Below are positions 7,757-48,700 of a stretch of DNA of 64,000 bases, in pieces (position 1 is the stretch's first letter; every line of letters starts with the position of its first letter). Below the pieces are notes generated by a model. The model saw nothing but the letters and a program-made list of their open reading frames with translations, searched no databases and was not told the DNA's origin. Both the position numbers and the translations under genes were made by a program. The stretch spans positions 6,923,001-6,987,000 of the forward strand of contig NC_092570.1 in assembly GCF_037975245.1 (NCBI RefSeq), given 5' to 3'. This DNA is from Apostichopus japonicus. Its lineage: Eukaryota > Echinodermata > Holothuroidea > Aspidochirotida > Stichopodidae.

Positions 7757-8210
7757 GTAAGTATCTGTACCGGATTTTATCAATATAAAGAGTAGGTTAT
7801 TCTCGATAGTTCAAGGATCCATTCTGATTCATGGGGGTTTTTTCCTGGCAGTGGTTTAAATTCACTTGAGGGTAACAATTTTAAATCCTTGTAAATAAAG
7901 TAACTGGGAAAGTACAGCTTGGTTGAACTTCAAAGCTGATATGTAGATGGACTGCTTGTAAGGTTCATGAACATTATGTAAATAGAGGTCAAAGGTAGGA
8001 TCCTACTTTTGGTCATAGTTATAAGAATTTGATATAAATATTTTGTGTACAAATTTAACCAAGAATAAATGGGAGAGTACAATATAATGAATTGATGAAA
8101 TATTTTGTGCTCAAGTCAGTTTCCAAGATTATAGAAACTATGACTAGGAATTGACTGATTGATTAATTGATTTTTTAATTAATAAATGAATTGAATGGTA
8201 CATTCCAGTC
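1..8210 (+). repeat. 961-bp tandem array carrying the Kazal exons
   Basis: The unit is 960-961 bp (one 147-bp exon plus about 814 bp of intron) and is repeated eight times with a ninth tail that stops matching near 8210. Introns are almost as identical as exons. A few diagnostic sites vary: G/C in acgaa(g/c)agata, C/T in gcag(c/t)ctac, A/G in gatta(a/g)aatt, and ctcggtaag versus ctcgatag after the exon. The last variant splits copies 1-6 from 7-9, while the other sites are mixed in mosaic order. The final tail (8030-8210) has more changes than inner copies, as expected for an array edge outside concerted exchange. Confidence 0.95.
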
Positions 8211-15521: not shown

Positions 15522-15560
<39 letters not shown>

Positions 15561-15740
15561 TAGAGAGATAGATAGATAGACAGATAGACGGACAGATATA
15601 TAGACAGACAGATAGACAGACAGAAAGATAGATAGACAGACAGAAAGATAGACAGATTGATATACAGATAGATAGACAGACAGATATATAGACAGATAGA
15701 TAGACAGATAGATAGATAGACAGACAGATAGACAGACAGA

Positions 15741-15790
<50 letters not shown>

Positions 15791-18700
15791 TGTAAACCCT
15801 AATGAGAAACATTTTATTACATTGTTGAGTTTTTGCAGTTTCAAGTAATACTTATTGTCACGGACAAAATGATGTTGAATTTTATTTCTTTCTTAATTCC
15901 AAATTTTCCTGTAATGCAGGTGTTGAATAGCTTATATATCTTTGAGTTATTGGATTTTCGATAAATTGGTTGCAGAGTCGTTCAAACCTAAGTTTAGTCT
16001 AATTTGTGTCACAAAATCTGGCCAAAGGTTGAACTGCAATTACCATTGAAAGGTTTACAATAGTTACCATGGCTACTTGCACATGATTTAATGTGAAAAC
16101 CACTTCAAATTGAAGAGTGCACAAGTTACATTATTTAGGGAGAGAGTAAAATTTGATAGAAATTCTACTAGAATTACATCGTTTGTGTAAATACGATACA
16201 ACCGGTCAGCGACTTACATGATGTCTTTTCTGATCTATCCAGGTGACTGCGATTGCACAATTTGGGGTGATCCTCATCTCATTTCATTCGACAACGTGCC
16301 GTTCGACTTCCAGGGTGACTGCGAATACACTTTGCTCAAACCGTGCGGGGAGAGCGATTTACCAGACTTTGAGCTCATCGGAAACCTGTTCAAGGACTCT
16401 CCCAACGACAAATACTCGTACATCCGAGGGATGAGACTGGTGCTGGGAGGAAAGGTGTATGAACTACTCCACAAAGGGAAGGTCCTTGTGGATGGACTTG
16501 TAGAACCTCTGCCCTACAGAGATGAAGAAACCAATGTACAAATTACACCGATATCTACATATTTGGTGAGCATAATTGCAATAAAAGATTCGATTCTGTC
16601 TTTACATTTATCAAATGAGATTCATTCGTTATATCAGATTAAGAATTTAGAATACAGGGATTTTAGGAACTTGCTCATCCCCCACTCACTCACACCCACC
16701 CCCCCCCCCCATCCCCCACCCACCCCAACCGACATCCAAAGTAAAACCAGCTAGAAAAAGAAATTCAAATACAGATTCTCTTCCACCCCATGATTATGTA
16801 CTCATTCAGTATGTACCATTTTAGATGTTACATTGAATTTTATCACCAAACTTCTCATCTTCTGAGACTGCCAGAGCCTAAAAAGATGTTTAGTATTTGC
16901 ATATGTTGTTAATAAACATTCTGTACTATGATGATCTGTATGTGATTTCTGAGTCAATTTAATAGAATAAAGAATAACAATTAGTATACTACTCTCCAAG
17001 CCATGCCATTGCTCTTGCAGAGTAATTTCCCAGTTTCATCGCCAAATATCAAAAGTTCTGTACTGTGATGGTTAACTGTGATCTTGTCTCGTAGATCAGG
17101 GGTTCCCTAACTGGGGTGCATGAACCCCCAGGGGGTGCGTGAGTCCATCCCAGGGGGTTTGTGAAACGTTTCTGAAAGTCAAAACTAGATTACTTTTTGT
17201 TGAACTAAAATCTGATATATCATATCATTTAGTAATGTACAAAAGTGGTACCTATCGACAAACTCTTTTCGCGTTCCATACGCATATGTTGCCATAGTAG
17301 TATAGTACCGTGTGCATATGATAAAAAAAACAGGAGCATCTGTCTCATCATGTGTGATGGGTGATCGGTGCTTGATACAATTCCTGACCTGATCTTGAAG
17401 TTTCCATAAAAAAATATTTGTGCATCTTTTGTTTTTGTTCATTCCAATATTACACTATGAACTTGACCTTTAACAAAGCACTGTTATATGTATTATAGTA
17501 TAAGAAAGACTCAGATCGTGTCTCGAGAAGTTGGGGGGTTAGTGGACAACTCTGACATCCACAGGGGGTTCGTGGGGGGGGGATAAAGTTAGGGAAACCC
17601 TGTCGTAGATGGTACTTTCAACTTTCTGTTTCTCTACAGTCACTCACCACCGACTTTGGCCTTTCAGTCGTCTGGACCGGCAACGATGCAACTAAAATTA
17701 CCGTTTCAAAGGAGAAATTCTTTGACGTTTCATGCGGCCTCTGTGGAACCTGCAATGATGTCAAAAGGGACGAGTTCTTATCAATAACAGGAGAACTTGT
17801 GAGTATAATTCCAACAGTAGAAGAGACCATAGGGTTTACTTAATCTCTTGTTATATTGAAACTGATAATGGTTGATGTTAATCTCGAACCTACTAAAGAA
17901 ACATCGGAGAGACATTTAAGGAAGAATTATTGATCTTAATAATTGAATTGTTGATTATTCAACAATACCATGAATCATCAAACTAACATGAGACTTATAT
18001 TCAATATTTGTCCCACCCGTCAGATACCACCTCCTGAACACTCACACACATATGAACGTGCACACATGCCCAGACAGACAGCTGAAATTATATAGAAAGC
18101 ATTCAATATGTTAGTTTACAGAGAAAGTTATTATAGTAAACAAATAGATGTCATAATTATGTCTCTTTGTAAAACGTAGTCCTTGATACTAGAATCGACT
18201 GTAAAGTTAATGAATTGCAGCTGAGAAAATACAAGCTTTTATCGTTTCAATACAGAAGTGAAACAAGTGCATGCATGTTTGAACCACTTTAAGTTGGTTT
18301 GATTTCAAAGTACTTTATAATACTGAACAATGAACATATATATTACACCTCAGCCACTTTGATGCAAACATAATTGGTATTCTGAATATGATCAGGTATA
18401 TAGAGAGGTAACGAAATAATGTTCTTGACTTGTAGATGATGTCAAAAAATCCATTATGCTATATATTTACAGGTTTTGAAAGCAAATGCATATAAACAAA
18501 AAGGAAAGTCCTAATTTTGAAATTAAAATAAGGACTCTTTTGTGATGTAGTACTACAGAGTGTTAAATGTAGGTAGATTGATGAACCAAGACTACAATTT
18601 AGACATTTTTCAATTTTTATTTAATTTTAAAAGCTGAGTAATCCAATTGATTTTGGTAACTCTTGGAAGACTGGAGACAGGCAGTGTGTAGATACACCTG

Positions 18701-21700
18701 AAGAGATCATTTGCCCGGTCGGAGGAGAGGCAGAAACTGAAGCTAAGAATGCCTGTAATGCTATCATTGATCCATTCGGTGAGTAGAAGTATGACTGTAA
18801 TGCTATCATTGATCCATTAGGTGAGTAGCAGTATGGCTGTAATACTATCATTGATCCAGTAGGTGAGTAGCAGTATGGCTGTAATGCTATGATTGATCCA
18901 TTAGGTGAGTAGAAGTATGGCTGTAATGCTATGATTGATCCATTAGGTGAGTAGAAGTATGGCTGTAATGCTATGATTGATCCATTAGGTGAGTAGAAGT
19001 ATGGCTGTAATGCTATGATTGATCCATTAGGTGAGTAGAAGTATGGCTGTAATGCTATGATTAATCCATTAGGTGAGTAGAAGTATGGCTGTAATGCTAT
19101 CATTGATCCATTAGGTGAGTAGCAGTATGGCTGTAATGTTATCATTGCTCCAGTAGGTGAGTAACAGTATGGCTGTAATGCTATGATTGATCCATTAGGT
19201 GAGTAGAAGTATGGCTGTTATGCTATGATTGAACCGTTTGGTGAATGGAAGTATAAGTAATTATGAATATGTTTGATAATTTACAAGTTGTCTCTTGTTT
19301 TTTTTGAAAGGTGCTCTCGCTGTTTGCCATGACTTTGTGGATCCCACACCTTTCTATGATGCCTGCGTCTACGACGTCTGTGCGAGCGAGGAAGGAGAAA
19401 ATTTATGCACTAACATGGATGAATATTCAAAGGCTTGTAGCGATGCGGGCGGTGTGAGTAATTTCTGGTGGAAGGATAGACCGGAGTGTCAACCAGGTAG
19501 GTCATTAGATTTAAACCAAAAACAACAACAAGTGTTTACATGGTTACGTATCCTGCCACCCAAATGCAGCTTACCAATATAAAATGTGTTAATGTTAACT
19601 ACTAGTAGCATTACTGTCACTAGCGATTTCAGAGATTTTTTACACCCTTACTGTCAGCTATTTCCTTAAAGGAGTATGAAATACCAGCATTAAACATGCA
19701 GATGTAGCTACTTTGTTGGTCAAAGAGAAACTATTGCATAAGTTTATACTTTCATTTGATTGGAACATGTCATTTCGAGCTAATTTCACCAATATTCTGC
19801 AGCATGGTAAATACATGATTAATAGTTTGTGATTGTTTCTAGGACAACGGATTACTTCGACTGGGATGAATCAATTGGGAAGGTTTATGAGAGCAGACCT
19901 CCCAGCGGAACCGTTAAAACTGACCTTTAAAAAACTTTCAGTTTATTTTGTTTGGGAGGTCTGTAAGAGGATTAAAATTGATATTTGTGTTTTTTATTGC
20001 TAGCTGAGGTGGGGATGCTGGGAGGGGATGAGGTGGAGGGACTACTCCGTTTCTAATCGACATGGGAGTAAATGGAAAAATTCTAAAAGAAAGGTGACCC
20101 ATTCAAGGACAAAGTATTTCTTCCTAGTAGAAACAAATAACAGATGTTTTCCCTGGAGTATTGTCTACTTGGTATCAACAAATCAAATCATTCATTACAA
20201 GCTAATCTTGATGTTCACTCTTCAAAGTGAGTTGTGGATCAAGATGTTGAATTTACTGACAGAGTACGGTAATTGTACTTCACAGACTGTGATACTAGTG
20301 ATGGATAACGCCTTTGTATATTACATCTTTCAGAGTGCCCGGATGGATCCATTTACATTCCTAGTTTCCCAGGATGTCCCCCTTCCTGCATTCACCCACA
20401 AGGTGACCCCACATGTCCTGGTTCCCTGCCTGTGTGCCTCTGTCAGTTTCCTGCGCTATACCACGATGGCGAGTGTGTAGAGGACTGCACCGGTTGCCGG
20501 TTGGAATCTGGAGCGTATGTGAAGGTAACCGACCTATTGTTTTACTTTCTATGTCTTTTTTGTCTTTCTTTCTTTTTTATGATTATTACTTTAAATTTCA
20601 AAATTTACCATTACCTTACCAATATCCCATTAGGCTTACCCCTAAAACTAGTGTGATCCTCCCTGCCTATACTGGGAGTAATTTTAAGTCCACCCTCTTG
20701 TGAGGGATAGCTGACAACATAACCAATCCATATGGTTCTTGTCTGTTTTGTTTTATATAAACTTTTATTGTTAACTCTGGAAATCAATATTTTGCACACA
20801 GTGTCACTTCAATGCTACAAATTGTAAAAAGAAATACATATTTTTGCTCCAGTTGCACTAAATTCTTCACAATATGTCTTTAACATACCTTAAGAGAATC
20901 GAAAATGAAAATGAAGAGAAAACGAGAAGTCTTTTTTTTTCTTATTCATTTAGTCCACCCAGGACCTGAATCTACAACCTCTGATACTAACTTCCATTAC
21001 TTCCAATGCCACACTCTTTATCAACTAAAACGTATAACACTGGTCTAGCGTGATTGTCTGACCATAATTTGGTGTTTAATCACTTCAGAAATAGTTCCTT
21101 TTGTAAAACCAATTTTTTTTTTTTTTTAAACTTAAGCCTGACCTTTGGGACAATTTCATCTGTTGCATCTTTTGTTTACTTTAAGGATGGCACTGTACAA
21201 GTCAATGAAGATTGTACAGAGAGCTGCACTTGTGTTGAAGGAGAATTACAGTGCGCACCCTTGGAGTGCCACGAGGCGGCCGAATGTGGAGTCAAGGGCG
21301 GTGTACGGGGATGTCAGTGCAAGGCAGGCTATACTGGAGACGGATTGACTTGTGTTGAAGGTGATCGTTTGTTCCCATCAGTAATTCTATTTTTAGGTGT
21401 TTTTCTATTCCTTCCTTTCTGTCTGTTTGAGTTGCTATTTAAGGAAGGCATGTGTGTGACTTGAGAGGAAAGGTTGTGCAGCACCACCCAAGTTCCCTGT
21501 TTTTGGCCAAAAACAGGGGAGATTGATGATCTACCTGAGCTGGTGATGCTAGCCATTCTGAATGCTCTTCTGCACAAAGTCATGACTAAACACACAGTGT
21601 ACTATTTCAATGGTCAAGCCAAACTTGTCCTTACACACAGGAAAGTAGTGCTTGCCATTAGTGCACTTGTGTTTACAATCATATGGTGACTGGTCAATGA

Positions 21701-24700
21701 ATTATGTGCACTCATGAATGAGGCCTAATGACAGTATTTGGGTAGTTTATGCTATCAGGTAACAAATTATTAATGCTAAAGTGAATTTGAGGAGGACTGT
21801 TTTTCTATAGGCAGGCTTGTCCATCATGTAACTATTTGTCGCATGACAAGAATTTGAAAAAAATTATTCTCATTCCTTTGCTGTTCTTACTCAGTAAATT
21901 CTTGCTCAGTGAGCTGTTCTGTCATCTGTTTACTCTACAAATATTAGGAATTTCAGAGTGAGATAAAAAGAAAGATGGTGTGATAATAAGTTGTTTCAAT
22001 AACTTGGAGGAGAGAAACCAACATTTCAATTCTCATTTGTTAAATCAATCTAGCTGCCTGTGAGTGCACTGCCTGGGGTGACCCTCACTACGTCACCTTC
22101 GATGGTGCCCGGTACGACTTCCAAGGAGATTGCGAGTACGTCCTGATGGAGAGATGTACCGAAGATGAGAATGACCCGATTGAACCCTTCGAGGTCATCG
22201 CGAACAATCTCAAGATAAAGCCAACAGACTTGGTATCATACACAAGAGCGGTGCGTCTTGAAACGAGGGGCAAAACCTACGAGATCCAAGACGATGGCAC
22301 AGTATTTATAGACGGTATCCAAGAACCCTTACCGTACAAGGACAACGTTGTGACCGTACAGCGGCTGTTACCGAACAAAGTAGTAAGTTATGGCTTGATT
22401 TCTTAAAATGTAATAAATGTTTGGAGCATTCAAAACTTTTTTACCAGAGGCGACTGAAGATGAACAATTATGAGGAATAGCAAGTTAAGACATAACACAC
22501 CACAGGACTTTCATGGTAAAATGTAATGTAAAATGTAATAAATGTTTGGAGCATTCAAAACTTTTTTACCAGAGGCGACTGAAGATGAACAATTATGAGG
22601 AATAGCAAGTTAAGACATAACACACCACAGGACTTTCATGGTAATGGTTTAATATTTACTATCCAATCCAACATCAAACCACTTTTCTATTCTTCCCATT
22701 TTAGACCTTTCCCTTAACACTTTCCCTATATATAAATTTGCCTTATATGTCTCCTCCATGTACCCCTCCTCCATATAAACCTTGCCCCCCTTGTGACCGA
22801 TCCTCTTTAGCGCCCTTTTCCCTCGTAATCTAGACATGCTTCTTTGCTCTTTATCTAGGTGATTGACACCAACTTCCAGCTGTCTATCATGTATAACAGT
22901 CCTGCTGGAGTTAAAGTCAAAGCCTTCCACGACACCCACTTAGGAAAGACTTGCGGTCTGTGCGGTACCTGCAACAAGGATCCCAGTGATGAATTTCAAC
23001 TACCGTCAGGAGATATGGTCAGTATAATGTACACTTTACAGGCATGAGCTTTTTTCGTGATTTCTTTTCTACCGCGGGACAAAAACTTTTATCCTAACAC
23101 ACTGCAGCATACGCAAACTGGAGCCTATACCGCAATTTTTGCAAAGTTCTGTGATTTTGTTTTTTATCCCAGGCTCATCCCTGACTTAAAAGCGAGACAG
23201 TATTGCCCTTGGTTGTCATGGCAGCCATGCTAGAATGCAGGAATGTAGTAATTCAAGTACAAGCAAATAGGACCTTTCCCCACCGGCCCACACCCCTCCC
23301 TCAAAAAACCCAAAAAAGAAACATCTTCTAGAAAGATCAAGTTACCATTCCCAAATTCTCTTTCTACTCTTTGCCTGAACAGGCCGTGATATTTTGACTG
23401 ATGCGATCGCAAAATGTGGCTTTCATTAAACCCATTCAACCCAAAGCTCTCTAATTAAACCCATTCAAATAACTTTTATCAACGTTCAGAATCCAGAAAC
23501 AGGGCCACGTTGGACTTTATCACAATCTGAATACATACACTTGAATAGCGTTATTCATAAAACTTGTGTTAAAGTAAGTTGGCCTGACGTTTCAATCCTA
23601 GCAGGATCTTCTTCAGAGGCTAAATGACAATTAACAGGAACAGAAGGGACAAAAACATGCACAGAATACAGACAGGTTAATGAGCAGGGTTAACACAAAG
23701 AAATAGATATAAGGGGATTTGTAGACAAGGGATGGAGAGAAGAAAGAAAGAAACCAACAGGGGAAGAGGAGAGGTAGGAGAAAAAGTAGGTAGAAGAATT
23801 CATTAAACTTGTTAATACATTTTCACAAAGGCAACCAATGCTGTCGAATTTGCCAATGCCTGGTCAAATGGTGGTAGAACTTGTATTGAGGATGAAGGAG
23901 AGGAACCCTGTAAAGAAGGCTCAGAAGACAAGAAAAATGCCGAAGACAGCTGTAGCGTCTTAACCTCTGTCTCGGGTAAGTCGAATGAAAATTCCCTCAA
24001 TTTAGAGACATATAGATGTATGTATTTTAGATCCTCCTGCAAGCAGGAACTCGCGAAGAAGCCATGCATCATTGGCTTATCAAAGCCGCAAGCTGACCAA
24101 AGTCAGTCTCTTACATTCATATTTAACGTCCATGATTATGAATTGTCAATTGTCAGCAACTCTGTAACTGGACGACATATATTAATCTTGGAGTGACTCA
24201 AACTGGGGACCTTATGATTGAAAGGCACCGGCAGTAACCACTGAGCTAAACACTCCTTAGATGGTATTTTCCAGCCCCATCAATTGACTAGAAACATTCC
24301 TTCTTATTGTCTGACCGACTTGTTTATTTATTTATTTATTTGTTTGTTTGTTTGTAATCTGAGCGATTAAAGTCTTCCATTTTCATAGACCACTGCATCG
24401 ACTCAGTTCTCCGTTAGTGTCTTTGGAGGCATCCTCATTAACTTTAAGTAGATAAACTGACATCGTCTGAGTCATTCAAGCTGATAATCCAGTACCCTAT
24501 AGTCTAGAGAGATCAGCATCTCATTTTTAATACAATGGACCATGGATAGGTGTGAGTTCATTGATGTTGTAGTATGTAGTATCACTTACAGTAATGAGAT
24601 AATATGCTATAGTAACCAATCCAGCGTGTGTGCACAGAGTGCCAAGCCATTATGTAATGAAGAGGATATCAAAGCAAGGAAAGAATGATCATGTGACACC

Positions 24701-27700
24701 TGAGCTTTGACCATTTTACCCCCGGGGGTGTTTTCTTAGGTATCGTTGTAATGACGTAGTGTACGTAATGATATGTCTAGGGCTCTTTTGTATAGTATCT
24801 TCGTTACGCTCACCCCGACACTGAACTTTATCTTTCACAATGGACAGGTCCGTTTGCAGAGTGCCGCGCCATCTTGGATCCCTCTGCCATATTCGACGCT
24901 TGTTCAGTGGACGTTTGTGTCACGACCGACAAAGCCGAAGCCCTCTGCACCAATCTGAGAGTCTACGCTAGGGCCTGTCTAGATGCAGGCGGGGATCCTG
25001 GAAACTGGTGGGAGACTGTCCCAGAGTGTGGTAAGGTTTAACTTGTGTCCAAGAAAGTCCAACCAACTTCAACAAAAACAATAGTTCACCATTCCACAAA
25101 ATGAAGAAATCTGTTGAATATGCTCAAAGTTGCACTATGCATGAGCTACCTGGTTAAAATATTAAGAATTATACAATATTATTATTGTTATAATTTATTT
25201 CATAAATTGCGTCTTGCATTGTCTAACAACATATCCTGAGGATGTACTGATAAACATAGATCACTGTCTAGCTAATACTTATAAACGCTGCCATCGTAGC
25301 AGCATTTAACGCATAAAAATTGACGGTTTTGGTGACATATTTTTTTCCTCATTCCTTCTTCGCTTTGCCATCCTTGTGAATGTATGGTTTCTGCTAGCCT
25401 GAGACATACTTATTTATAGTTTTGTATTTTGCATCTGATTATCTTATGGTTCCTTGATTGTTATATTTATATGTATGTATTTTATATATATATGTCTTAC
25501 ATATATGTATGTATTGTATGTATGTATCGGTTGAACTCGTACTGTTGTCTCAGAACCAACATTTTCTATTGACACTGTTTTAATATGATCCTTTAGGATC
25601 ACCCTGTGAACTAAGCCACTTGTGCTTCTGGGTTAGAACCAAGTTGTCATATTACTCATAATTCTGTTTCAAAACCCAGCATGTTTTATTGACACTGTTA
25701 ATGAAACCTTGTCGGTCAATCTGTTGACCCATGCATAATCTATTCCAGAACTGTTTTGTTCTACGTTCTTTGATCCAAGTGGGAAACCAGCTTGTCCAAT
25801 TTGAGATATTTTTATGAACCATCATATCAGCCCGTAATGAACAACTCCTGCTTATTCCAGAACCACCTTGCCCTGTCGATATGGTGTACGATCCTTGCGG
25901 ATCAGCCTGTCAACCTACGTGTGCTGGAGAGTTAGCTGATGACTGTAAGTTCCAGTGTGAGGAAGTCTGCGTTTGTCCCGAGGGTCTGATGCTAGATGTA
26001 GATAGATGTGTACCGGAAGCAGAATGTGGCTGTAAACTACCAACTGGAGGATATATTCAGGTAGTTATGTCAAACTTTATTCCTCTGACTGGTACCCCAT
26101 AAGACTGTACCCTGCCCCACCATCCCCCCCCCACCTCCCAACATCCTCCTCCACAATCACACACCCATGGCACTTCATATATGAACTGTAAGAAAAGGAA
26201 ACAGCACATTTCTCAAAGGTATGATACAAGATCTAAAGCCACAATTGTTAGATATAGTTCTCTGACTTATACCATTACAGTGGTTACTTGCTGCTGGAAT
26301 TTTGGGGTAACAAAACTTCAATGAAATTGTACATTCAGGATGAATTTAATATTCCTGTCAATTTCTCCTTTACCTGTCTCCCCATAAGAATTGCATTCTG
26401 TGTTTCAGACTTGTGGCATGTTGATGCTGTTAAACATCAGTTGATTTGGAAATGAGAGCATTTTATTTCTCTTTTCATATAAGAAAAAAAAAGTCTTTTG
26501 TAATGATATTTTTTCTTCAATCTACAAGGACTATATCTCTAAATATGCGTGGCACATCAAAGTTTTGTATTTGCATTTAGAAGAACACTGAAGTTTGATT
26601 ACGTTGCTTGAAGTGACGATCTGTGGATCCCTGAATCACCTCTAATGTGTAGTGACAAATTCTTTTATTCTGTTTACAGATAAAGTGACAAATTCTTTTG
26701 TTTGTTTACAGATAAAATGACAAATTCTTTTATTCTGCTTACAGATAAAATGACAAATTCTTCTATTCTGTTTACAGATAAAATGACAAATTCTTTTATT
26801 CTGTTTACGGATAAAGTTAAAATTCTTTGCTTCTGTTTACGGATAAAGTGACAAATTATTTGCTTCTGTTTACAGCAAGGTGAAGAGGTGATGAATGAGG
26901 ACTGCAGCGAGGTCTGTCGTTGTACGGAGACGGGATTAGAATGCTCAGCAAACACCTGTCCTAGTAAAGCCACATGTGATGTGAAGAACGGAATCAGGAA
27001 TTGCTACTGCCCTGACCAATATGTAATGAAAGATGGCACATGTGAAAGAGGTAGGTGTAGGTTAATTGCAGGTTAGCATTAACCTTTACATGGTGAAAAG
27101 GATGGTACATATGGAAAAGTAGGTGTAAGTTAAATGCAGGCGAAAAGTACCTGTGAATGATGGAAGAGGCAGGTGTTGGTTAAATGCAGATGAAAAGGAC
27201 ATGTGTATGGTGGAAGATGGTACATGTGAATGAAGTAGGTGTAGGATAAATGCAGGTGACCATTACCTGTTACATGGTGAAGGATGTGACATATGGAAAA
27301 GGTAGGTGTAGGTTAAATGCAGGTGACAAGTACATGTGAATGGTGGAAGATTGAACATGTGAAAGAAGTAGGTGTAGGTTAAATGTAGGTGATGGCTATT
27401 ACCTGTTATATGGTGAAGGATGGTACATATGGAAAAGTTAAGTGTAGGTTAAATGCAGGTGAATATTACCTGTAAATGGTGAAAGGTCATATGTTTAAAA
27501 GAGGGAAATGTAGGTAGGTAACAGACTGCGACTTGGTAACCTTTTTTCTTCCTTTTATCTTCTTTATCTTAACTGAAAGTCTGAAAGCTGAGCTCACAAT
27601 GTTTGCCTTTCCTATTTTAAAGATTTTCCAGGATTAAGCAGTTTTTCGGTTTTTCATATCATTGTGAACATGAAGACAAAAATTATATCTTACAACTAAC

Positions 27701-30700
27701 AGAATGTGCACCATATGCCAGCTGTAACCCTTGCGATAAATCAATAGTAATATGGTTTATTTCACTTACAAAGGTCCTTGCGTGTGTAGCGTGTTTGGCA
27801 ACCCTCACTTCACAACTTTTGACAAGTTGGCCTATGACTTCCACGGGGAATGCGAATACATCCTGGCTCAGAAGTGCGGAGATTCAGAGATATTACCAGA
27901 CTTTAAGTTGTTCGGTCAGCTCAACAAGAACGCCCCCCGAGACGAGGTCTCGTATCTCCGTTACCTGAGGCTGGAGCTGGACGGCGTCTCGTACGAGATA
28001 TTCCTCGGAGGCAAAGTCAAAGTGAACGGACGGAGAGTGTTTTTGCCCTACGTAGATGAGGAGAAGGGGATCACCGTTGGAAATCAAGTCTTTGGATTTA
28101 CAGTGAGTATTTTTTTTTGCTTTGTTTCCTCTCTGGTGGCAGAAGTTACATCGGGAGGAAAAACCCTTCCCCGACATACCCGGGGTGGAAAAAGGGTCCC
28201 AAAGGGACTAAACAGGAGCGAACTCACCAAAACAGGAGGTAATAAGGCTTCAAGTGAGCTGCGCGGATGCGAAACAAGCATCAAAACCTTCAATGTAGAC
28301 TTGCAACTGAACAGAGCAAGTCACATAAAAAAAATGACCAGGCCAAGGCACAGGATCTGGCCCGACAGAGCTGGCTAGACCAGCTGCCCTTGGCAGGCTA
28401 CAGTATAGTTGGTGGTATTTTTGTTTGTTTGTGAGTTGAGCGCCGATGGTGCGGGAAAATGCATAAGTAATTTGTCCAGAAGGTAAGGAGTTCCCGATGT
28501 AGGTAGCCCCACTAATCAAGTGGGGATAGTTTCATGGATGTGACCCTTTCTGTGATTGGGTCTTTATCATCAGGAGGGGAGTGTTAGAGATTGGAAAAGG
28601 CTAGAAGAGTGATAGCTACTTTCTTTACACTGAAACTTACATTTCTTTGTTAAAATGACTGTTTTATTGTGTTGGATATTTCCCTCCATGGTTGCATGAT
28701 TTTTCTCTCTATATGATGGTCAAACGATACCTGACTAGTTTTATTGATGAATAATGGATGGGAAAAAAAGTTGTCAGTTGCAGTATTAGTTTATGCAATA
28801 AAATGGGTTCATATGATCTTTTATATCTTTTGTAATCTGTTGTTCCTCTTTAGACTATCGCTGCTGAATTTGGACTGTTTGTGATGTTTGACAACGTACA
28901 AAAGGCCGAGATCCATGTACACGCCCAACATGCTGGCCAGACATGTGGTATGTGTGGTACATGTACAGAGACACAGTCTGATGAACTAACATTACCTAAT
29001 GGAGAACTTGTAAGTATTATATGTATGGTATGTGTGGTACATGTACAGAGACACAGTCTGATGAACTAACATTACCTAATGGAGAACTTGTAAGTATTAT
29101 ATGTATGGTATGGTATGTGTGGTACATGTACAGAGACACAGTCTGATGAACTAACAGTACCTAATGGAGAACTTGTAAGTATTATATGTATGGTATGGTA
29201 TGTGTGGTACATGTACAGAGACACAGTCTGATGAACTAACATTACCTAATGGAGAACTTGTAAGTATTATATGTATGGTATGGTATGTGTGGTACATGTA
29301 CAGAAACACAGTCTGATGAGCTAACATTACCTAATGGAGAACTTGTAAGTATTATATGTATGATATGGTATGTGTGGTATATGTACAGAGACACAGTCTG
29401 ATGAACTAACATTACCTAATGGAGAACTTGTAAGTATTATATGTATGGTATGGTATGTGTGGTACATGTACAGAAACACAGTCTGATGAACTAACATTAC
29501 CTAATGGAGAACTTGTAAGTATTATATGTATGGTATGATATGGTATGTGTGGTATATGTACAGAGACACAGTCTGATGAACTAAAATTACCTAATGGAGA
29601 ACTTGTAAGTATTTATGTATGGTATGGCATCTGTTCATATTTATATCTATCTATGAACTCCATGTTTCATGGGGGGGGGGGGGGGGGATTTTGAAGCATT
29701 ATGCACACAGTTAGGAAAAGGTTTACTAAAATACCTCAGCAAAAGTGTACATAGAATTGTGAGCTTTGGTTGACAGAATTTCCTCTGTTAGGAATATCTT
29801 TGAATATGCAATTTATTGTAACTTGTATGCTATAATGGCTTCTGGTTTGATGTATGTTGCTACGATACAGGCCACAACCGTGGAGGCATTCGGAGCTGCC
29901 TGGAGAAATGACGAGACATGCGGAACAGAGGAAGTGACTGAAAATCCCTGCAAACCAGGCTCGGATGGAGAAACAAAGGGCAGAGACCTCTGCAGTCTTC
30001 TGATAGCCGTTCCAGGTAAAGCATTAAATCTGATGCTCTGATGAATAAACTTTACATGAACATGAATATTTAGCAAGACATGTTATCAAATCTCAACACA
30101 CTAACTACCACATTTTACATGATCATGGATATTTAGCAAGACATGCTATCAGACCTCAACACACTAACTATACCACATTTTTCCTGCAGCAAAGCTGTTT
30201 ACATCGTGTCGAAATTTTATCATCATGGTAGATGTATTTAGTGATGAATAAAACACCCCTCAAAATCAAACAAGTGGCTTTCAATATTAACAAGTGGCTT
30301 TCAGTATTTTGTATTCCAAGGAAAGTTATAAACAGCTATGGACAGATAGAACTGTTTGCATTGATGCAAGGCACAGTATAACATTGTCTTGAAGACCCTA
30401 CTTAGTCAAATTCCTTCCACCCCCTCCCCCCCCCCCTCATTCTTCCCCAGCTCTATTTGAATATACAAATCACCTTCTTAGCGATGATCTTTCTGTTTCG
30501 AATAACTAAAAGAAATTGCCAAATTTGAAATAGTGCAATAAAGGGTGAAGTATTGCTTATGTCATTATTCTTGTCAGTTTGAATATTTGGATATTGAATG
30601 TACTGAAAGTTGTGTACTAAAGTTACAAGAGCCTGACAATTCCATCCCATCAGGATCTTCATGAGAAGCAGGCTAAACTAAAACGTGGAGACATACATGT

Positions 30701-36700: not shown

Positions 36701-39700
36701 CCACCCATGTAAACCAGGGTAGGGGGTCAGTTCCCTACAAGGGATGCACATCTCACTTCCACAGAATTCTTGATAACCTTGGTCAGGATTTAAAAACAAA
36801 TTATTTGTCATAAACAAACTTTGTGTCATCCTTCTGTTTACATCCAGCTGCTCCCATAGGTCCTTGCTGATCCCTCCCATGTTACCCCGGTAGGGGGATC
36901 AGCTCCCCACAAGGGATGCACATCTCATAATTCTACAGCAATCATGTTCCCCTTTTTCAAGATTTTTTTTGAAGAATTACTTGTCATATTTATTTGTCAT
37001 GTTTTCAGCTGCTCCCTGCCCAGCGGGTCTGGAGTACACAGATTGTGGCACTGCTTGTCCACCGTCTTGCGAAAACCCGGACGGTCCCGTAGAGTGCGCA
37101 GAGACTTGCATCGAGACCTGCCAGTGTCCAGAAGGACAAGTCCTGGATGGTGAAAAATGTGTCTTTGATTATAACTGTGGCTGCAAATTACAGAATGGTG
37201 TCTACATATCTGTGAGTTTAAAGTTAATTTAAAGTTAACTTTTATTGAGAATTCTGCAATTTATAGGAAATTTTCAAATAACTCTTACATTCCTGGACAA
37301 TTTGAGGATCGGTGACTGCAAAAATTTTGGGAATTGTGTTCTCTGTTTTATTGATGTCATTTCCATGGGTATTGCTCTTATGAACTCTGGTTATTGCTAT
37401 TTATAGCTATATGTAGCTATTCTTTTCACCTGTTGTTGGTCACCACAACTGACTGTACACGTTAGCATGTCATATCTGTCTTCTGTTCTCTGTGTACATT
37501 CTGGCCAAATGTCTACCAGTAGCCAGGTAGCAAATGACAGCATGCTGATGAATAACAAAAACAATATTGCTTGCTCAGTTATATGTTAAAATTAACTACC
37601 AAAGCAATTATGCACTTGAATTATTATGTAACTCTGCCAATGAGAAGCCACTGTCACAGTGGTAAACTACTTTCCATGAATCGTGCAAGAAAATGGCATT
37701 GCTGCATGGAAATGACCTAATTTGTTATCAGATGAACTGAGCTAAAGGAATGATCAATTCATACTGAAGCACTAACCACTCTGGCCTTGAGTAGCAAACC
37801 GCTGATAGACAGTACCGACAGTTACGTCTTTCAGTAGTAAGACAGCCACTTGTCGATTTCCTTTGCCATATCACGATTTGTAAATTAATGACCCTTTCGT
37901 TGCAGCAAGGTGATGTGTACACATACGACGATTGCTCTCTTCGCTGCACCTGTGTGGACGGGGAAGAAAAATGCGAAGCTTACGGTTGCCGTGGTACCGA
38001 AGAATGTAAGGTCGTTGGCGGAGAGAGAGGATGTTTCTGCAAGGAAGGGTTGAAGTTCAACGGACAAGAGTGCTCCGACGGTAATTGTGGACTGTTTTTT
38101 CCCTTTTCTTTTTAAAAACTGTCGCCATAAATTAGATGGAAATTCTTGGAAATGTTGGATTTTGATTTTAATCAGGAGGTGTTGCAAATGCTTAAAAAGA
38201 ACAAAAATATTTGAAATTGAACATCTTCATCACTTTGTAGTACTGGATCAATTGAAGGCACGCAACTTCCCCTAGTGATGGCTATTCAATGCGTTTACAA
38301 TAAATATACTAACTGAATCTGCAGATAAAACTCAAGAAGGATGTTTATGTAAGTCGCTAGTTCCGTTTGAAGCCTAATATCGCCGTCCATCAGATGTGTT
38401 TAAATTATCTGAGAGTATATTATACAGTTTGTTGAATTTTGTATAAGAATAACAGCAGATGACAGACACATGGGTATGGATGGGAGAGAGAGGTGCCTTC
38501 GTCAATTCATCAGTAACTGAGTGATTAGATAATGAATAAATTTAGATAAAATGCCATACTTCATGCAAAAACTCTTCCATGGTAAACCTTTTTACAATAA
38601 AATACAGAACAAGCTGAATGCTTAATGCTTTGATAACAAACACATTTTTTTTTAAGTTTACTCTATGTGTTGTTTGTAGAGCCTTGTTCTTGTCAAGTTT
38701 GGGGAGATCCCCATTACATCACCTTCGACGGCCTGGCCTATGACTTCCAAGGAGATTGCGAATACGTTCTCGTGGAAACCTGCGACCATGGTGACCTGCC
38801 AACCTTCAGAGTCATCGGTAGTAACGACAAGAACCTTCCATCTCAGTCAGTCTCTTACCTGCGACGAGTCAGATTGGAGTATAATAACATGGACTATGAG
38901 ATACTCAGCACTGGTGTCATGAAGGTGGGAGGGGTAGCAGAGACTCTACCCTATACGACAGGAGGTACAGAACATGTAACCATTACGCTCCTACCACCAG
39001 GGAAAATAGTGAGTGAAAATTTATTTCCTGTTGTATTTTAATATAATAAAACCTATTTCTACAACTTTTTAAGGGGGGAGGGGGAATATGGAAGAAGTGA
39101 GGAGAGGGGGGGGGGTTGGGGGTGAGAGAAGTTGTGTTTTGAAAATTATTTGTACTAAGATGTAGATAATATTATGTATTCAAAATAATAATTTTAATAA
39201 ATATTACTTTATTACAGTTAAAATATTAATTTTAATCAGTGAAAATATTAAAAAATGGTGACACTGAGGAAATAAGCTGTTGTGTTTCATTAAAACCAAC
39301 ACTAATTATTAATGTCATCTCAAATTATGAGTAAAGTATGGAATCATCTTGGTTCGTATTGATATTTTAAAATCCAACGCTTAATTAACCCACAAAAATA
39401 AATTGTGTTTATTAAGCAATGTCCGATTAAATAATAAGATTTCTAACTCCCTGGATTGTTGGGTTTCTAACCATTTGGGTTGTATCAATGAAATTGAGGG
39501 TGTGATCCATAGTCACACACTATGCAAGGTACCGTGACTTGTGACTGGCACCCTTCCCTCCCTCCCTCCCTCCCTCCCTCCCTCCCTCCCTCCCACACCC
39601 ACACCTCCCTCCTGCAAAGAAACAGGGGGACTGCCACCAACTAACAGCTGGGTAGTTCAGTGGGTGGAACACAGGACTTGTAATTCTGAGGTCACATTTT

Positions 39701-42700
39701 GACTGCATGCGGTTCTGGCCAAAAACCCTCTTTGCTCTTTTCAAAATAATTTCTAACTGATGGAAATGCTTTTGAGAGTACTTTGTCAACATTTTAAATA
39801 TGAGTAACCATAATTAGATGCTCTAGCATATTTAAGGGCATTACTAGTCAACGATTCAGTCTTGGCTTGAGGTTTTAATGTGTAAATATGATTACTTTCT
39901 TCCTTAACGCAGATGGTGGTCACTCACTTTGGTCTGAAGATGACCTTCACCTATGCTGATGCCGGTCTGACCGTGGAGGTCAGTCCTGACTACTACGAGG
40001 TACTGTGTGGTCTCTGTGGTACCTGCAATAAGGACCCTACCGATGAATTTGTCCTTCCCAGTGGAGAACTGGTAAGTTTACCCCTTAGAAATGTGACATT
40101 GGCAGTTGATAGGCCATCCCCTCTAAGTATAAGCCCTCTTGATGAATCTTATTAGTCATACAATTCTTGGTAATGACTTATACACCACCCCACCCCACAG
40201 ATTGTCTGTTTTCACCCACATGTTACCACTGTTCATCTTGTGATCATTGTGTGCAAATGTCTTTAACATTTTCCATATGTTGGATTGAGCAGTTTCGGTT
40301 TTCATGCATCCAGAAGATATTCTGTAAGCAGTCGGACTTGATTTATTCATTTAAGGACAAGGAACAGGTCTAGGGAAATTTTCCCTTAATTGAATTTCCC
40401 ACCTGTGAATAAATATGTACCCAAAAACAACCTGGTATAAATTAGTCACTCTCTTTCTCTGTGTCAGTCTGTGACGTTACAAAAAGAGCAGGGTGCTTTG
40501 CCAAACAGCTACTGTTGGGAGGTGAAAAACCTATGGAATAAACAACAACAATTTCCAATATGTTATGAAATATTACAATACTGTGAATTGTTTCCAGCTC
40601 AAATGTTTGTCATGTGAATTGTTTTCTACGCTCCATCATCCATACTTTCATACTTTGTTCAGATATTGTTTTACGTTGTCTAATAAAACTTGTGGTATCT
40701 TTCACAGGCGGAATCTGCTTCAGCATTTGGTAATGCCTGGACTGTGGGCGATAAGCAGTGTACTCCAGACTCTGTGATAGATCCTTGTGATGGCAAAGAT
40801 GATGCCAGAGTGGGTGCAGAGAATCTTTGTTACATCCTGAAAGCTGATGGTGAGTTTGATTTACCCAATTATTACAAATATTATCTGTCATATTTAATGG
40901 TATACACCCAGAACAGTTTGTTGGGAGATGTCAAAGACCATTATATAACATGTACAGTTTATCACTGTGGTGTCACGGGACTGCCTTGCTATACTTGCTA
41001 AACATTCACTGGCCAGCTCTTATTGGGTTTCCTATTCCAGTTGCAGGGCCCCTCAGGACCAGGGGAGTAATATCTCTCCCCCAGCCCCACCCCTACCAAT
41101 ATCTTTCGCAGCAAAGATTTTTACCATTCATGATGACTCTACAGGTGGCAATTTCACTACCGCTGAGACTTTGGTCTGGCCTCACCCGTTCCCACACCCT
41201 ATCCCCTTCTCCCTCCCACACCCTATCGCTTTCCCCTCCCACACCCTATCCCCTTCCCCCTCCAACACCCTATCCCCTTCCCCCTCCCACACCCCAATCT
41301 CAAGCCTGGCTCATCTCAAGTATTGTTTATATCATAGTGGTCTTTGAGTTCCTCCTATAGAAGAAAAAGAATACAGTTTAAAATTTAAGAAACTTCCCAA
41401 AGCAACGACCCAACCAGAATAATAGGGAGTTAAACGTCTCATCTTCAGAATTTTCTGATTCCAGTAAAAGCAGAGATAAACTCAATTTCTTTTCTCTGGT
41501 GTTGTTTAAGGTCCATTTGCCAGCTGTCATGAGTTTGTGGACCCTGATTCGTATTACAACAGCTGTGTTTATGATACTTGCGCCACCGAGGGTACTGACT
41601 CATTCTGTGCTGCCTTAGAAGCATTTACGACCGCCTGTCGCAATGCCGGTGGTGACCCAGGACAGTGGTGGGAAGAAGTAGCAGAGTGCCGTGAGTCCAT
41701 TTGCATCTTCATTTTATTTAGCTTTTGAAATATTGTTGTGGTAAATTTTGTCCTGAAGCAGTATTTTAAATTCTATTCAAATTGAAAACTTGAGTCACAG
41801 AAACATTGTTAATATCAGCAGTGTCTTATGCTGTTTTCTTGGTTACAGAGGTCATGTGTAGTTTCTCTCCAAGCTTAGTTCAGTTTGCTAAAGTTGCTAG
41901 AGGCAGATTTTCTAGATGTTTTTATCTTGTCTATGGCATATATGCACATGGTTTGTAAAACAAGTTGATCTCAGGTTTGGGACATTCAGATATTTGATGT
42001 TCAGGAGAAATACTGCAGCTAAGAACACACTGTTGTGTTTTTAATTCTATTCCGTTGAAAGGTCATCTGCCCAGAATTCAGTATGCTAAAACTGCCAAAA
42101 TTTGCAAACAGTAAATTCCTCTGTGCATGACAATTATGACCCTCAAAATAATTTATTATGTAAGTTTAAAATTAGTAAAACTTAGATGTCTGGTTCATAT
42201 TAAACATGTTTTGTTACACAATTACTATTAATGAAACATTTTATGCATGTAAATTATTCAAGTACATAAATACATATGTCACATTAGATCATCAGTCATG
42301 TTTGATTTTAGGAGTTCATATAAAACGATTATCATTCACGACACTGTGTGTTTTCAAATGTGATCTCTGTCCAAACCTGACCTGGGTGATATGTACACCA
42401 CCACGTCCAGGTTTTGATCCAGTCTAGCTGTGTATTAAGTGGGTCCTAATTCTTGGCTCTGGTCTCATGTAATTGCAGCTGGACCTTGTCCCGAGGGCAT
42501 GATATACACAGCGGATGGCCCGGCCTGTCCCACCACCTGCTCCAGCAGGGATAATCCCATCGCCTGTGACATTCCAAATGTAGAGACGTGTGTCTGTCCA
42601 GAAGGAAAGATTCTAGATGGCGATAGATGTGTTTATCCGAGAGAATGCGGATGCATCACTCCAGAGGATACCTACATCTCGGTATAAATATCACATGTTC

Positions 42701-45700
42701 ATTGTTGTAAATATGTTATGGTTACATTGGTTTGTTTGGTTGTTTATTTATTTGATTTTCCACAGATGATAAATATATAAATGTGGAGAGAAGTCCTTTA
42801 AAAAGCAAATACAGGCTTAACAAAGTAATTAAGGACTCCCAATAAAGATCATATGTTCATTGTTGTCAATTTGTTATGGGTAAATTGGTAGTGTGATGTA
42901 TAAGATACCTCAAAGATACTGTGAAATTAGTCAGTGACTATTTTATTAGTGAAGTTTATTTGACTGTGATGATGGAAGTATATATGTATTTAGGTGTGTC
43001 ATACCTCACAGCTAATATATAATGGTTTGTAGGTTATATGAGGTATATACTACCTCAATAATGTTTAAGTAATCTATGATTAAATGAGGTATGTAATACT
43101 ACTGCAAGGATATGACATATGTATGTGGGTGTTTATGAGGTAAAGTATGTCATACCTCATAACTAATATATAATGCTTTGTTGGTTACATGAGGTATTTA
43201 ATACCTCATATAATGTAGAGTTAACCATTGATTAAATGAGGCATACACTACTCTTAGGATGTAATAGAGGTATGTATTGATTATATGAGGTATTCCCTAC
43301 CTCATCATATGTGATACGTGTATTCAACTCATTATTTTTGGGTAACATCCTCAAAAATGGAATGTACCAGTTTTCATGTGTCTCTTCTTTCAGCCTGGCT
43401 CTGTCTATATCAATGAAGGATGTTCACAAAAGTGTACATGTATCCTGGGAGAGCTGGACTGTGAGACCTACCAGTGTTCTGCTCAGGCCTCCTGCGAGGT
43501 CAAATCTGGAAACAGAGGCTGCTATTGTTCTCCTGGATACGTTGGAAATGGCCAAGAGTGTGAGCTGGGTAGGTACCACATCAGATTATTTTATTTCCAA
43601 GCCTGGCAAAAGTTGGTCAGGGGTCTGCAGCCTCAGTGGTCTGAGTCATTTAGGAGGCTTGGAGGAATATGGGATCAAAAATAATGTTTGATCATATTCA
43701 TAATATAATATACGAATTATAAATAAATGCATTTTATAGTTAGGTATGAGTAAAGGATGCATCAGGTCAGATCTTTTGCCCACCAGAAAAATTCTTAAAG
43801 CCATGAATTTCTAAAGACTTCAAGAAAGGAGCCCATGATGATTAACATTTATTGTTCCCAAGCTGTAACCTATCTCTCAATTCCCTTGTGTATGTCCTAA
43901 TGTTTACTAGCTATTTAAAGCTCAGTTAAAACTCCTGTTCATTTGAACCCATGCAATTCTGGTCAGTTAGATAGATGATATAATAAAAACTCATCTCAGA
44001 TGTTGTATGTTATATAAAATAAAGCTATCAATGTACACCATTATTAAGGCAGTCTCTGCCCCATATATCTCACTGCATTGCATCTGCTTCAAGGGGGATG
44101 CCTGTGGACAGACCAGAATAGGTAGCCTACTGAAAGATCACAAGCACTCGATACTCAATATTTATTTTTCTTTCTTACTGGACTTCAAGACAAATATTCT
44201 CTCTAAATTCATCCTTCTTTATAGCTGATTGTGAGTGCTTGATCTGGAACAACCTTCACATCCGGACGTTTGACCTGGTCAGCTACTCACACAACATCGG
44301 ATGCGAGTATATAATGGTCGCCGACAGAACTGGAACAGCGCAATTCGAATTGTCCGGTATCTTTGCACAAACTCTGCCGACCGTGCTGACTGCGCTCAGA
44401 TTAACATTCGAAGACAGGTCGTACGTCCTGGGAAGCGACGGCCAACTAACATTAGGTGGTGTCACCGTGGGAACCACTTTCTCAGATGATGTTGTCACTT
44501 TAGTCCGCCTGCCGGAAGCAAGCTCAGTAAGTAGATCTGCTTTTATATATATCAGAGCGAATATTTATGTGTAAAATAATGTCTATTTGATGCAGTACTT
44601 TGAAATTTGTTTAGCCAGAGGGAGAGTAAGATGCTAGTCTTTAGAGTCACAGAAATAATAATAGACACCTGTCAAGCGGGTGTTCAAATGATTGTGTAAA
44701 TGTCAGAATATGTCTGAATGAACAGTTGGACTCGTGCATGGAATGGTTTATTATAATCGTATCTTTCTCAAAACTGTTGATACGTTCACTGATGGAAGTC
44801 AATCTTTTCCACCTTTTCCACAGATCCTTACAACTTCCTTTGGGCTTTCTATTCACTTCAGCATGTCAGGTGTGGCTTCTATTAAAGTGACCCCTGACAT
44901 GAGGGGAGAAGTGTCTGGTTTGTGTGGAACCTGTAATGCCGATGCAGGCGATGAGTTGACCTTGCAGAGCGGAGCTGTGGTAAGCCTAGTTTTGTTGCGC
45001 AAAAATTCAAAACTCGATAAGATAAAAAACAAAATTTTAAAAATTGGGTTCCATGGGAGAAGGTTGGCCATAAGTTATCACATCAAGTGACACCTTTTGC
45101 TGTAATTCATCTTATAGGATTTTAATATTGGTTTTGTAGTCAGCCACAAAGACATAGTTAAAAGTGCACACTTAGCTTAGCTTAGAATCATACTTTTATT
45201 TAGTAGGGAAGTACATAGGGTTCTAGTAAGGTCAGGCACATTTGAAGTGTTTGATATCATCTATGGTGGGAAAGAGTAGTTCACAAACTTCGCTCCAATT
45301 CTAGTAACATTCTTGTAGTCCCTCGTTTTCGGACCATGTTTTGTTGCTGTTGCTGGTCCTTGCCTGTGGAATTCTCTTCCTGCTTATCTCAAAATGTGCC
45401 CCTCGGTTTGTCTTTTGAAATGTTTACTTAAATCTTATCTTTTTAAGAAAGGTTTTGATGTCTAATCTGTTCTGCTTTCTTTTTGTATCTTTTTATGTGT
45501 TTTATTCATTTACTTCTCTTTATTCTTCTTTTGTTGTACGGTACAACAGATTAATTTTTATAGTTGTGTCGCTTTATAAATTTTATTATTATTATTATTG
45601 TTATATGATAATTTCACAAGTTGTCTGTAAACTTTGCATACTGTGGTAATATGCATATGTAGCTGCACTAATCCATTAGACAGTGTAGGTTAAAGTCAAG

Positions 45701-48700
45701 TTGAAACCACTTTTTTTTTAAATCTGAAGAGCCACAATAAAAATGACTAAAATTGTTAACATGGCAAAAATAATTTGAAAACTTTTTTTTCGGTTATTTT
45801 CAGGCATTTCTGGAAAAATTAGACAAAATTTAAATGCATGTGCAAAGTTAAGGAAATTTTTCTCATTCTGGTGAACTCTGATCAAACCATTGATGATATT
45901 GCATAGCTGAAGGACAAAGTAAAATACAGAGCAAAATCAGAGAGATCATGATTACTGCTGTCAGCAAAATATGAATATGCATGAACAGATGATAAAAGCA
46001 AAGTGGTTTTCCCCTGGGCTAGGGTATCCCTTGTTTTCTGGACCATAGGTTAAAACTAAACCCTGCCTCCAGATAAAGAATGTCGGCTTTTTCTTCATCT
46101 CACTTAGAGCGTTTTAGTGCATTGAAATTTAATTTTGTTGTTATTTTCTCCTGTGTCTTAAGACTGGTGATATAGTTACCTTTGCTGCGAATTGGCTCAC
46201 AGAGGAATGTGTGGCAACTCCACAAACAACCGATTCTTGCGGCAGTGATGAGGTCCAAGCAAGAGACAGGTGTTACTACCTCATCAATCCTAATGGTGAG
46301 TAATAGACTACTTGGTAATGAGGTACAAGCCAGAGATATAGGTGTCACTACCTCAATAACACTAATAGTGAGTAGTATAGACTACTTGGGAATGAGATAG
46401 AAGCCAGAGATATAGGTGTCACTACCTAAATAACATGAATGATGAGTAGAAGATTACTTCTTGGTAATGAGGTACAAGCCAGAGATATAGGTGTCACTAC
46501 CTAAATAACATGAATGATGAGTAGAAGATTACTTCTTGGTAATGAGGTACAAGCTAGAGATATAGGTGTCATTACCTCATTAACACTAATGGTGAGTAGT
46601 AGACTACTTGGGAATGAGGCACAAGCCAAAGATATAGGTGTTACTACCTCATCATTCCTAATCCCCCTTCCATCTGAATATTTTGTGTCTCTTATACAAC
46701 TTTGGTGTGTTATGAAACTTTGAAATGCACATTTAAATCCAACAAACAATCTCTTCTTGTTGAATAAAAGAAATGATTTCATAATCAGTATTACTTTCTT
46801 CTTGATTTCGATAAATGTAGTGAAAACAGTGGAAATATTGTAATATAAGTAAGACACCAGAAAAAGTACCACATATTAAAAGATGTTACAATCTCAATTT
46901 GCATTCATTCAAGTTTTCAATATTAATATTTCTGCAGGTATCTTTGCCGATTGTCACGACTTTGTTATTCCCGATTCACACTACGAGACCTGCATCAATG
47001 ATTTCTGTGTAGACGAAGCCTCCATCATAGACTGCTTCGCTGTGTACGCCACAAAGTGTCGAGCTGCAGGGGGACCAGCAATTAACTGGAGAACTGAAAT
47101 ACCTGACTGTGGTGAGTAACGGTTTGAGGTTTGCTGTGCTTTATACCATATTCAGTCAAGGGAGGGAGGGGGGAAGGAAGAGGGGGTAGGTAGATGGTGT
47201 ATGTTTGAGAGAATATTTTTTCATCTTTAGTTTAGTTTAGAGACCCAAGGATCAGGAAGCCTTTAATACAGTAGCTTATTTGAGACCCTATCCGTGTTAG
47301 ATCGTGAAGATGTGTTGATGCTTGATCACTTATTAAATGGCAAACAGGATCAGATATTGTGATATGGTACGTACCAATTAATTAATTAATCAGAATTTTA
47401 GGGTCTCCAAAAGCCTGGTATAGAAAAAGTGAAAGGGAAGACACTGCACAGTATCTTATTGTACATCTATCCATTTGGGACCTAATATTCTGTTCAGTAG
47501 AGGGAAAAATTCATAGTTATTTCTTTGCTTTTAGAAATGACTTGCCCAGCCTCTACTACTTATTCAACATGTGCATCTGCCTGCACACCAAGCTGTGTGG
47601 ATCTAGACGGCAGTGAAGACTGTCTCCACGGGTGCATTGAGACCTGTTCTTGTAACTTTGGCTCCATCTTGAAGGACGGAGGGTGTGTCAAAGAGACGGA
47701 GTGCGACTGCTACACTGAGGAATACGGTATCATAGACGTAAGTTAATCATACTGCTACACTGAGGAATACGGTATCATAGAAGTAAGTTAATAATAATAT
47801 AGCTTCATTTGTTATGATGAATATCACATGTGCATGTTGTTATAAAGTTGATCTTGTCCATGAGTGTGGGACATTTTGGGAGTTGATATGGGGGGGGGGG
47901 GGGGAGGTGGGCTTGGGTAAGGCCGATGGTTTGGGTGAAATAGTCTTAATGGGTTTTAAGTCAGTGAGTCAGTGTATAGTACTTTGGCGGTATATTGATG
48001 GATGGAGAGTGCAGTCAAGAGCCACAAATGTGAATGTATCATTCTACAGTATCAGGTCTACAGTATCTGAGGACAACAGTATTACAGTATTAAAGTCTTT
48101 ACAATCTTAACCGGTAATCTTTCATTCTCTTCCTTGCCTCATCAGGAAGGTATAGTCCTGGTCAACGATGACTGCACAGCGACCTATGAATGTATTGATG
48201 GAACCGTTCAGACTAACGGGGAGTACGTCTGCTCACCAGATGCATTCTGTGGTGTGAAGGATGGAGTGCAAGGATGTCACTGCAACGAAGGTTTCGAGGG
48301 AGACGGTGAAACGTGCGAGCAGGTCGCTCAAACTCCAGCTGACTGTTATGAACTGTTGCTTAGCGGAGAGACGACGGACGGTGTTTACACCATCGCCCCT
48401 CCAGGCTATCCTGGTGGATCCTTGGAGGTCTACTGTGACATGACCACTGATGGAGGTGGTTGGACGGTATGTATTTTTCTTGCAATACTAATGTATCACA
48501 ATGACTTTTATGGTCATCTGTACCCCTCCATCTCCTCCCCCCCCACCCCCTCACCTAAAGGAGCTATAGAAAGTAGCACATTCTGTACAGATGGAAGGAT
48601 ATGCCACATATTCTCCCCATTGACTTATGCAGTAACATTGTCATAGTGTTATGGTTTCAACCAGCACAAACTACCTCCCACTTATATAGCTGACATAGCT

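Follow-up and report, generated by a model that had tools for sequence, protein, structure and literature searches.

Minisatellites spanning splice sites in an EGF/VWD-type gene of Apostichopus japonicus and its sister genes

Our search for precedents in the literature led to the human ABCA7 VNTR as the nearest case and also to the exon-border repeats of human paralogs. The available part of the ABCA7 report (PMC5954066) describes a VNTR in intron 18 which flanks an exon and includes its donor, so that, if the next copy is used, one unit is retained and the resulting frameshift leads to a stop codon. The minisatellites presented here, located in one gene within the window (the whole analysed stretch of 64,000 nucleotides), likewise flank an exon and include its donor. 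However, ABCA7 is described in that text as having a single array with a 25-bp unit starting from the GT, studied for both RNA and alleles (PMC5954066), whereas the window gene has several arrays, exon sequence within the unit and an additional acceptor array, and is known from DNA alone. Copy number in the ABCA7 type also concerns alleles, while the variation reported below is between sister genes of one assembly.

Internal tandem repeats have also been found at exon–intron boundaries of human segmental-duplication paralogs (PMC2812944, available part). As in our material, the number of repeats at the exon borders varies among recent paralogs, but transcripts in the human genes support novel introns or retained repeats, while here the intron positions look unchanged and only DNA was analysed. 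The dual-specific splice sites of UBC, as presented in the accessible text of PMC10809524, are comparable in that a repeat unit carries a splice-site motif (in our case, partly AG|GT); those repeats are coding, whereas ours are intronic and most of the seven exon ends concerned lack AG|GT. Another published case, to the extent of the text available, involves tandem duplication of a stretch with splice signals, as here, although no new intron is present in the window gene. The arrays of this gene are a multi-array example of the donor-spanning VNTR kind, the nearest known case being the ABCA7 VNTR.

Arrays at the splice sites of the window gene

The analysed part of the host gene lies at 8308..50488 of the window (plus strand), where 45 exons with GT/AG borders were chained into a single open frame with a TGA at its end. 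EGF, VWD, C8, TIL and Fibrinogen_C domains are Pfam matches on nine of these exons, and module names for the other exons were given by reading. Upstream of the EGF/VWD exons, positions 1–8122 consist of a 961-bp unit repeated head to tail about 8.4 times with 99–100% identity; the unit contains a Kazal-type exon (Pfam, one copy tested). This is a very recent tandem exon duplication, possibly belonging to the same gene. A dispersed element, roughly 165 bp long, is present at 13579–13746 and 31333–31503 and has matches elsewhere in sister genes A, B and C, and the segment 9910–10220 is element-like, with ends that appear inverted by eye. Beyond the gene, we observed chromosome-internal, telomere-like GGTTAG repeats (54338–54397) and, on the minus strand at 60516–61340, an open frame of 275 codons with a kinase-like look (by eye). 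Among the matches listed, VWD exons are densely clustered at C15:15.82–15.94 Mb and C1:4.39–4.48 Mb, which points to a probable large expansion of VWD-type genes.

Out of 44 donors in the window gene, seven (exons 10, 19, 21, 24, 27, 40 and 42) are followed by an intron holding a copy of their own exon tail and donor. All of these features are on the plus strand. The exon-10 array (18745..19254; 42 bp, 12.1 copies by TRF, supported by alignment) has a unit composed of the 34-bp exon tail and GTGAGTAG, with the true donor at 18779. At exon 21 (28946..29634; TRF and alignment), the 85-bp array of 8.1 copies combines 64 bp of the exon tail with 21 bp of the intron, the true donor being at 29010 and the intronic copies numbering seven. 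The exon-40 array (46248..46651; 72–75 bp, TRF period 75, 5.5 copies) includes 48 bp of the exon tail together with the donor (true donor 46296), and the two-copy 45-bp array at exon 42 (47706..47796; TRF) is made of a 32-bp exon tail and 13 bp of the intron (true donor 47738). The exon-19 array (27027..27515; TRF and alignment) has a unit of about 66 bp carrying the exon tail and donor, with five intronic copies. Its TRF part (27121–27515, 66/133 bp) stops short of the true donor at 27051, the inclusion of which is shown by the alignment of 27027–27080 with 27211–27264. Arrays of the ABCA7 type, which start within the end of the exon or exactly at it and take in the donor, are found by TRF at exons 10, 21, 40 and 42, and by alignment at exon 19.

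Two further donors are duplicated in two copies. At exon 24 (31804..31984), the tail and the donor at 31823 have a weak copy from 31955, absent from the earlier note, with an alignment score of 40, which is exactly the threshold. At exon 27 (34247..34555), the duplication is degenerate and was detected by alignment, not by TRF (34247–34327 against 34481–34555, donor 34304). Exon 19 is also preceded by a 33-bp array of 3′ splice-site modules (26651..26875; TRF, 6.9 copies), most units of which comprise TGAC, a pyrimidine-rich tract and ACAG; the last copy is the exon-19 acceptor itself, and the array ends at the AG with zero exon bases.

The earlier note had placed repeats at six donors and at the exon-19 acceptor, and all seven places are recovered by TRF or alignment, which bears out its claim of unrelated minisatellites over several splice sites of one gene. 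Most of the periods given there are right as well, except that of the array at 47706, which is 45 bp by TRF and not 30 bp. Chance resemblance of the copies is ruled out: when a donor window was compared with its own intron (an “echo” being a score of at least 40), the seven donors scored 40–120, while comparisons of donor windows with other introns gave at most 30. An assembly artefact seems unlikely because the arrays are about 0.1–1.1 kb long and the probable source is a PacBio HiFi assembly of Apostichopus japonicus (PMC10344927, available part). The mitochondrial COI on C35 makes sense when translated with the echinoderm code, in which AAA is Asn.

Sister genes and a distant relative

Four sister genes, A, B, C and D, are located on C10, the same chromosome as the window gene, their dS to it being 0.057, 0.051, 0.141 and 0.243, respectively (for D, over 1508 codons). 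In D, 26 of 45 exons were mapped, including four without GT or AG where expected, and exon 40 of C was placed by hand from the alignment. Exons 10, 19 and 21 have an array or copies in all five genes, and exons 40 and 42 in the window gene, A, B and C, which are all four genes where these exons were found (both are unmapped in D). The exon-24 copy is shared by the window gene, A and B and is absent from C and D; the exon-27 copy has the same carriers and is absent from C, the exon being unmapped in D. The acceptor array of exon 19 is missing from C.

The numbers of intronic copies in the window gene, A, B, C and D are 11, 10, 4, 9 and 4 at exon 10, and 7, 10, 11, 6 and 11 at exon 21; at exon 42, the first four of these genes have 1, 3, 1 and 14 copies. 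The exon-40 array has 5.5 copies in the window gene and 15.8 in A (TRF). Since the sisters share arrays at differing copy numbers, these arrays are inherited and are turning over in copy number. The suggestion of the earlier note that such events happened repeatedly in one gene stands as far as the presence of several arrays is concerned; most of them are common to the sisters, so they are not recent to the window gene alone.

A distant gene on C1 has the same exon plan, with matches to all 29 exons from e8 to e36 and donors assigned for 28 of them, and none of its 27 scored donors has an echo. Because of this lack of donor echoes, the exon-10, -19 and -21 arrays would most simply have arisen after the split from the C1 gene and before the duplications on C10. 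This outside comparison spans e8–e36, and the arrays at exons 40 and 42 were compared within C10 only.

A coding variant of exon 21, GAG>CAG, is present in sister C in the exon and in 5 of 6 intronic copies, while in D it occurs in the exon and in 1 of 11 copies; in the window gene, A and B, it is found neither in the exons nor in any of the 28 intronic copies. Therefore, an exon tail and its array can evolve together. Exchange with the exon is nevertheless not general, since the exon-10 intronic copies of the window gene, A, B and D have a T at the fourth base which is found in no exon copy (the rows of C stop short).

Position of the arrays relative to donors and acceptors

Local duplication is abundant in the introns of the window gene: an echo is found for 163 of 1650 interior 60-mers, whereas the corresponding figure for four control loci is 35 of 1719, low-complexity 60-mers being excluded from both counts. 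Donors with an echo are also more frequent in this gene (7/44) than in five control loci (1/54; Fisher P = 0.021). These controls are 10-kb stretches, all with VWD-type genes, hand-picked from the VWD match list; in the four that also gave the 60-mer counts, a consensus rule applied close to where homology ends was used to pick the donors, so that L033 and L035 may include some incorrect ones, and the sole control echo (L033, 478) scores exactly 40.

One may ask whether tandem duplication has mutational hotspots at donors, which seems unlikely to us in view of how the result depends on the background. Against the intron interiors of the same gene, the seven echoing donors give P = 0.14 at the overall rate of 9.9% and P = 0.006 at the rate of 5.0% obtained with the donor-array introns excluded, these values being rough as overlapping 60-mers are non-independent. 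Echoes are present in the first-60-bp intronic windows of 9 of 44 introns, and 4 of 417 exon 60-mers echo in the downstream intron, all from the donor-array exons 21, 40 and 42. The placement test was based on 15 TRF arrays (period at least 20, score at least 50, overlapping rows merged), four of which span a donor. If placements covering more than 65 exon bp are barred, 1.44 such arrays are expected (P(≥4) = 0.042; P(≥5) = 0.0097 when exon 19 is added), and with a single unit placed under the same bar, the expectation is 0.71 (P(≥4) = 0.005), while unbarred placement gives 3.44 and no excess (P = 0.47). The earlier note would have given up its idea if splice-spanning repeats were no more frequent than expected from the introns, which is the case on some backgrounds (P = 0.47 and 0.14) and not on others (0.042, 0.005 and 0.006).

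In favour of a hotspot are the 5.0% background, the one-unit placement, and sister C, which alone has a donor array at exon 36 (TRF) and whose exon 18 shows a weak echo (score 41). They are opposed by the comparison with all interiors, by the unrestricted placement and by the control donors, whose rate of 1/54 resembles the interior rate of 35/1719. Donors are thus not clear hotspots; the donor arrays are real, and their enrichment over general duplication is at most moderate. Some donor bias is possible because both donor and first-60-bp windows are above the interior rate and two of the three placement nulls show an excess.

Donors and acceptors differ. Of the 44 acceptors of the window gene, none has an echo that includes exon bases, versus 7 of 44 donors (Fisher P = 0.012), and the only acceptor array, at exon 19, halts at the AG. 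No exon-containing acceptor duplication reached a score of 40 among the 44, 44, 43, 43 and 24 acceptors tested in the window gene, A, B, C and D, respectively. We infer that this asymmetry results from a selection filter, as a donor duplication spares the first exon end and a duplication of the acceptor plus exon does not.

The most probable origin of these minisatellites, in our opinion, is local tandem duplication which by chance straddled exon ends, was kept at donors and is turning over. The anatomy of the units agrees with such seeding. A duplication within an exon, or of an acceptor with the exon start, would alter the mRNA and be purged by selection, while a duplication over a donor would leave the exon and its first donor intact and could persist, which fits the donor/acceptor asymmetry. 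Slippage or unequal exchange would then lengthen or shorten the arrays, which would also become homogenised, sometimes together with the exonic copy; such a pattern is seen in the sisters.

Splicing potential and alternative roles of the arrays

In line with the earlier note, most intronic copies retain a donor-like site: in the five genes pooled, 147 of 153 are at or above the weakest real donor (36/38, 17/19, 43/45, 33/33 and 18/18 at exons 10, 19, 21, 40 and 42), a lenient bar of 0.5 against a median of 8.8. The median scores of the copied donors at these exons are 10.4, 6.4, 9.2, 11.2 and 8.7, and it is possible that they create alternative sites. Donor-specific selection on the intronic copies was considered and rejected, as conservation of the donor bases shows no consistent advantage over the remainder of the unit: mismatch in the GT is 0.20 versus 0.13 in the exon part at exon 40 and 0.05 versus 0.14 at exon 10, while at exon 21 the two values are nearly the same.

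In the window gene, read-through of the first donor meets a stop codon after 8, 26, 60, 18, 60, 8 and 9 nt at exons 10, 19, 21, 24, 27, 40 and 42, respectively. The upstream acceptor units of exon 19 in the window gene, A, B and D mostly carry TGAC at about −27, a putative branch-point motif, followed by the pyrimidine-rich tract and ACAG; some units are without TGAC, and the pattern search overlooked one unit of the window gene with a divergent tract. Use of most of these units would lead to a stop at the third codon, the exceptions, both with ACGG, being one unit in the window gene and one in D, with stops at codons 12 and 17, respectively. Since the alternatives in the window gene meet early stop codons, splicing most likely occurs at the exon-adjacent donor and at the last copy of the exon-19 acceptor. 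Any effect of the arrays would then consist in leaky use of copied sites or in skipping of the next exon, as has been reported for ABCA7. The lengths of exons 11, 41 and 43, each next after an array, are divisible by three, and those of exons 20 and 22 are not.

These properties might suggest a selected splicing “rheostat”, in which array length would set the share of productive mRNA via competing sites and stops. The persistence of arrays over sisters with dS up to 0.24 and with differing array lengths is compatible with this idea, and the available text on ABCA7 reports that VNTR length changes splicing and expression (PMC5954066). However, donor bases are not consistently favoured over the rest of the unit (the exon-40 values run the other way), sister C manages without the acceptor array, the exon-24 copies are missing in C and D, and persistence is explicable by homogenisation alone. 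Such a rheostat is therefore improbable in our view, and we give equally little credit to its extended form, in which the duplicate-donor arrays and the exon-19 3′ splice-site modules would act as copy-number-tuned switches setting the productive mRNA output of each sister.

Introns are reportedly able to originate from tandem arrays (Zhuo 2007), and the earlier note proposed that intron gain may be in progress here. The exon plan, common to the array-free C1 gene, and the AG|GT counts lead us to reject this. A new intron relative to relatives, as postulated by the Rogers model, was not found on comparing the window gene with the C1 gene over e8–e36, nor is the duplicated exonic segment with AG|GT, its other element, general in the window gene, where AG|GT stands at the ends of exons 19 and 24 only (2/7) and is lacking from the other five. 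Because the C1 gene has matching exons and no echoes, the arrays occupy already existing introns. The AG|GT motif of dual-specific sites is present in some array units, and in the four sisters, exon 10 and its intronic copies mostly have it, the copies being mostly TTAG|GTGAG. The broader reading, that duplicated AG|GT segments are giving rise to new introns or alternative exon ends, can draw on this motif, on the strength of 147 of 153 copied donors and on models and cases that are published (as given in the available texts), but with the array-free gene sharing the exon plan, no extra intron, AG|GT at two of seven exon ends and early read-through stops at all seven sites, it is the least likely of all.

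Under local duplication with retention at donors, the meaning of these arrays depends on which donors are used. If the first donors alone are used, the arrays represent ordinary turnover of intronic minisatellites. Should the copied donors prove to compete at the RNA level, the sister genes would form a naturally occurring series of competing 5′ splice sites, in which near-identical donors and exon tails are followed by 1 to about 15 intronic copies, and they would also test the persistence of donor duplications, as opposed to exon-containing duplications of acceptors.
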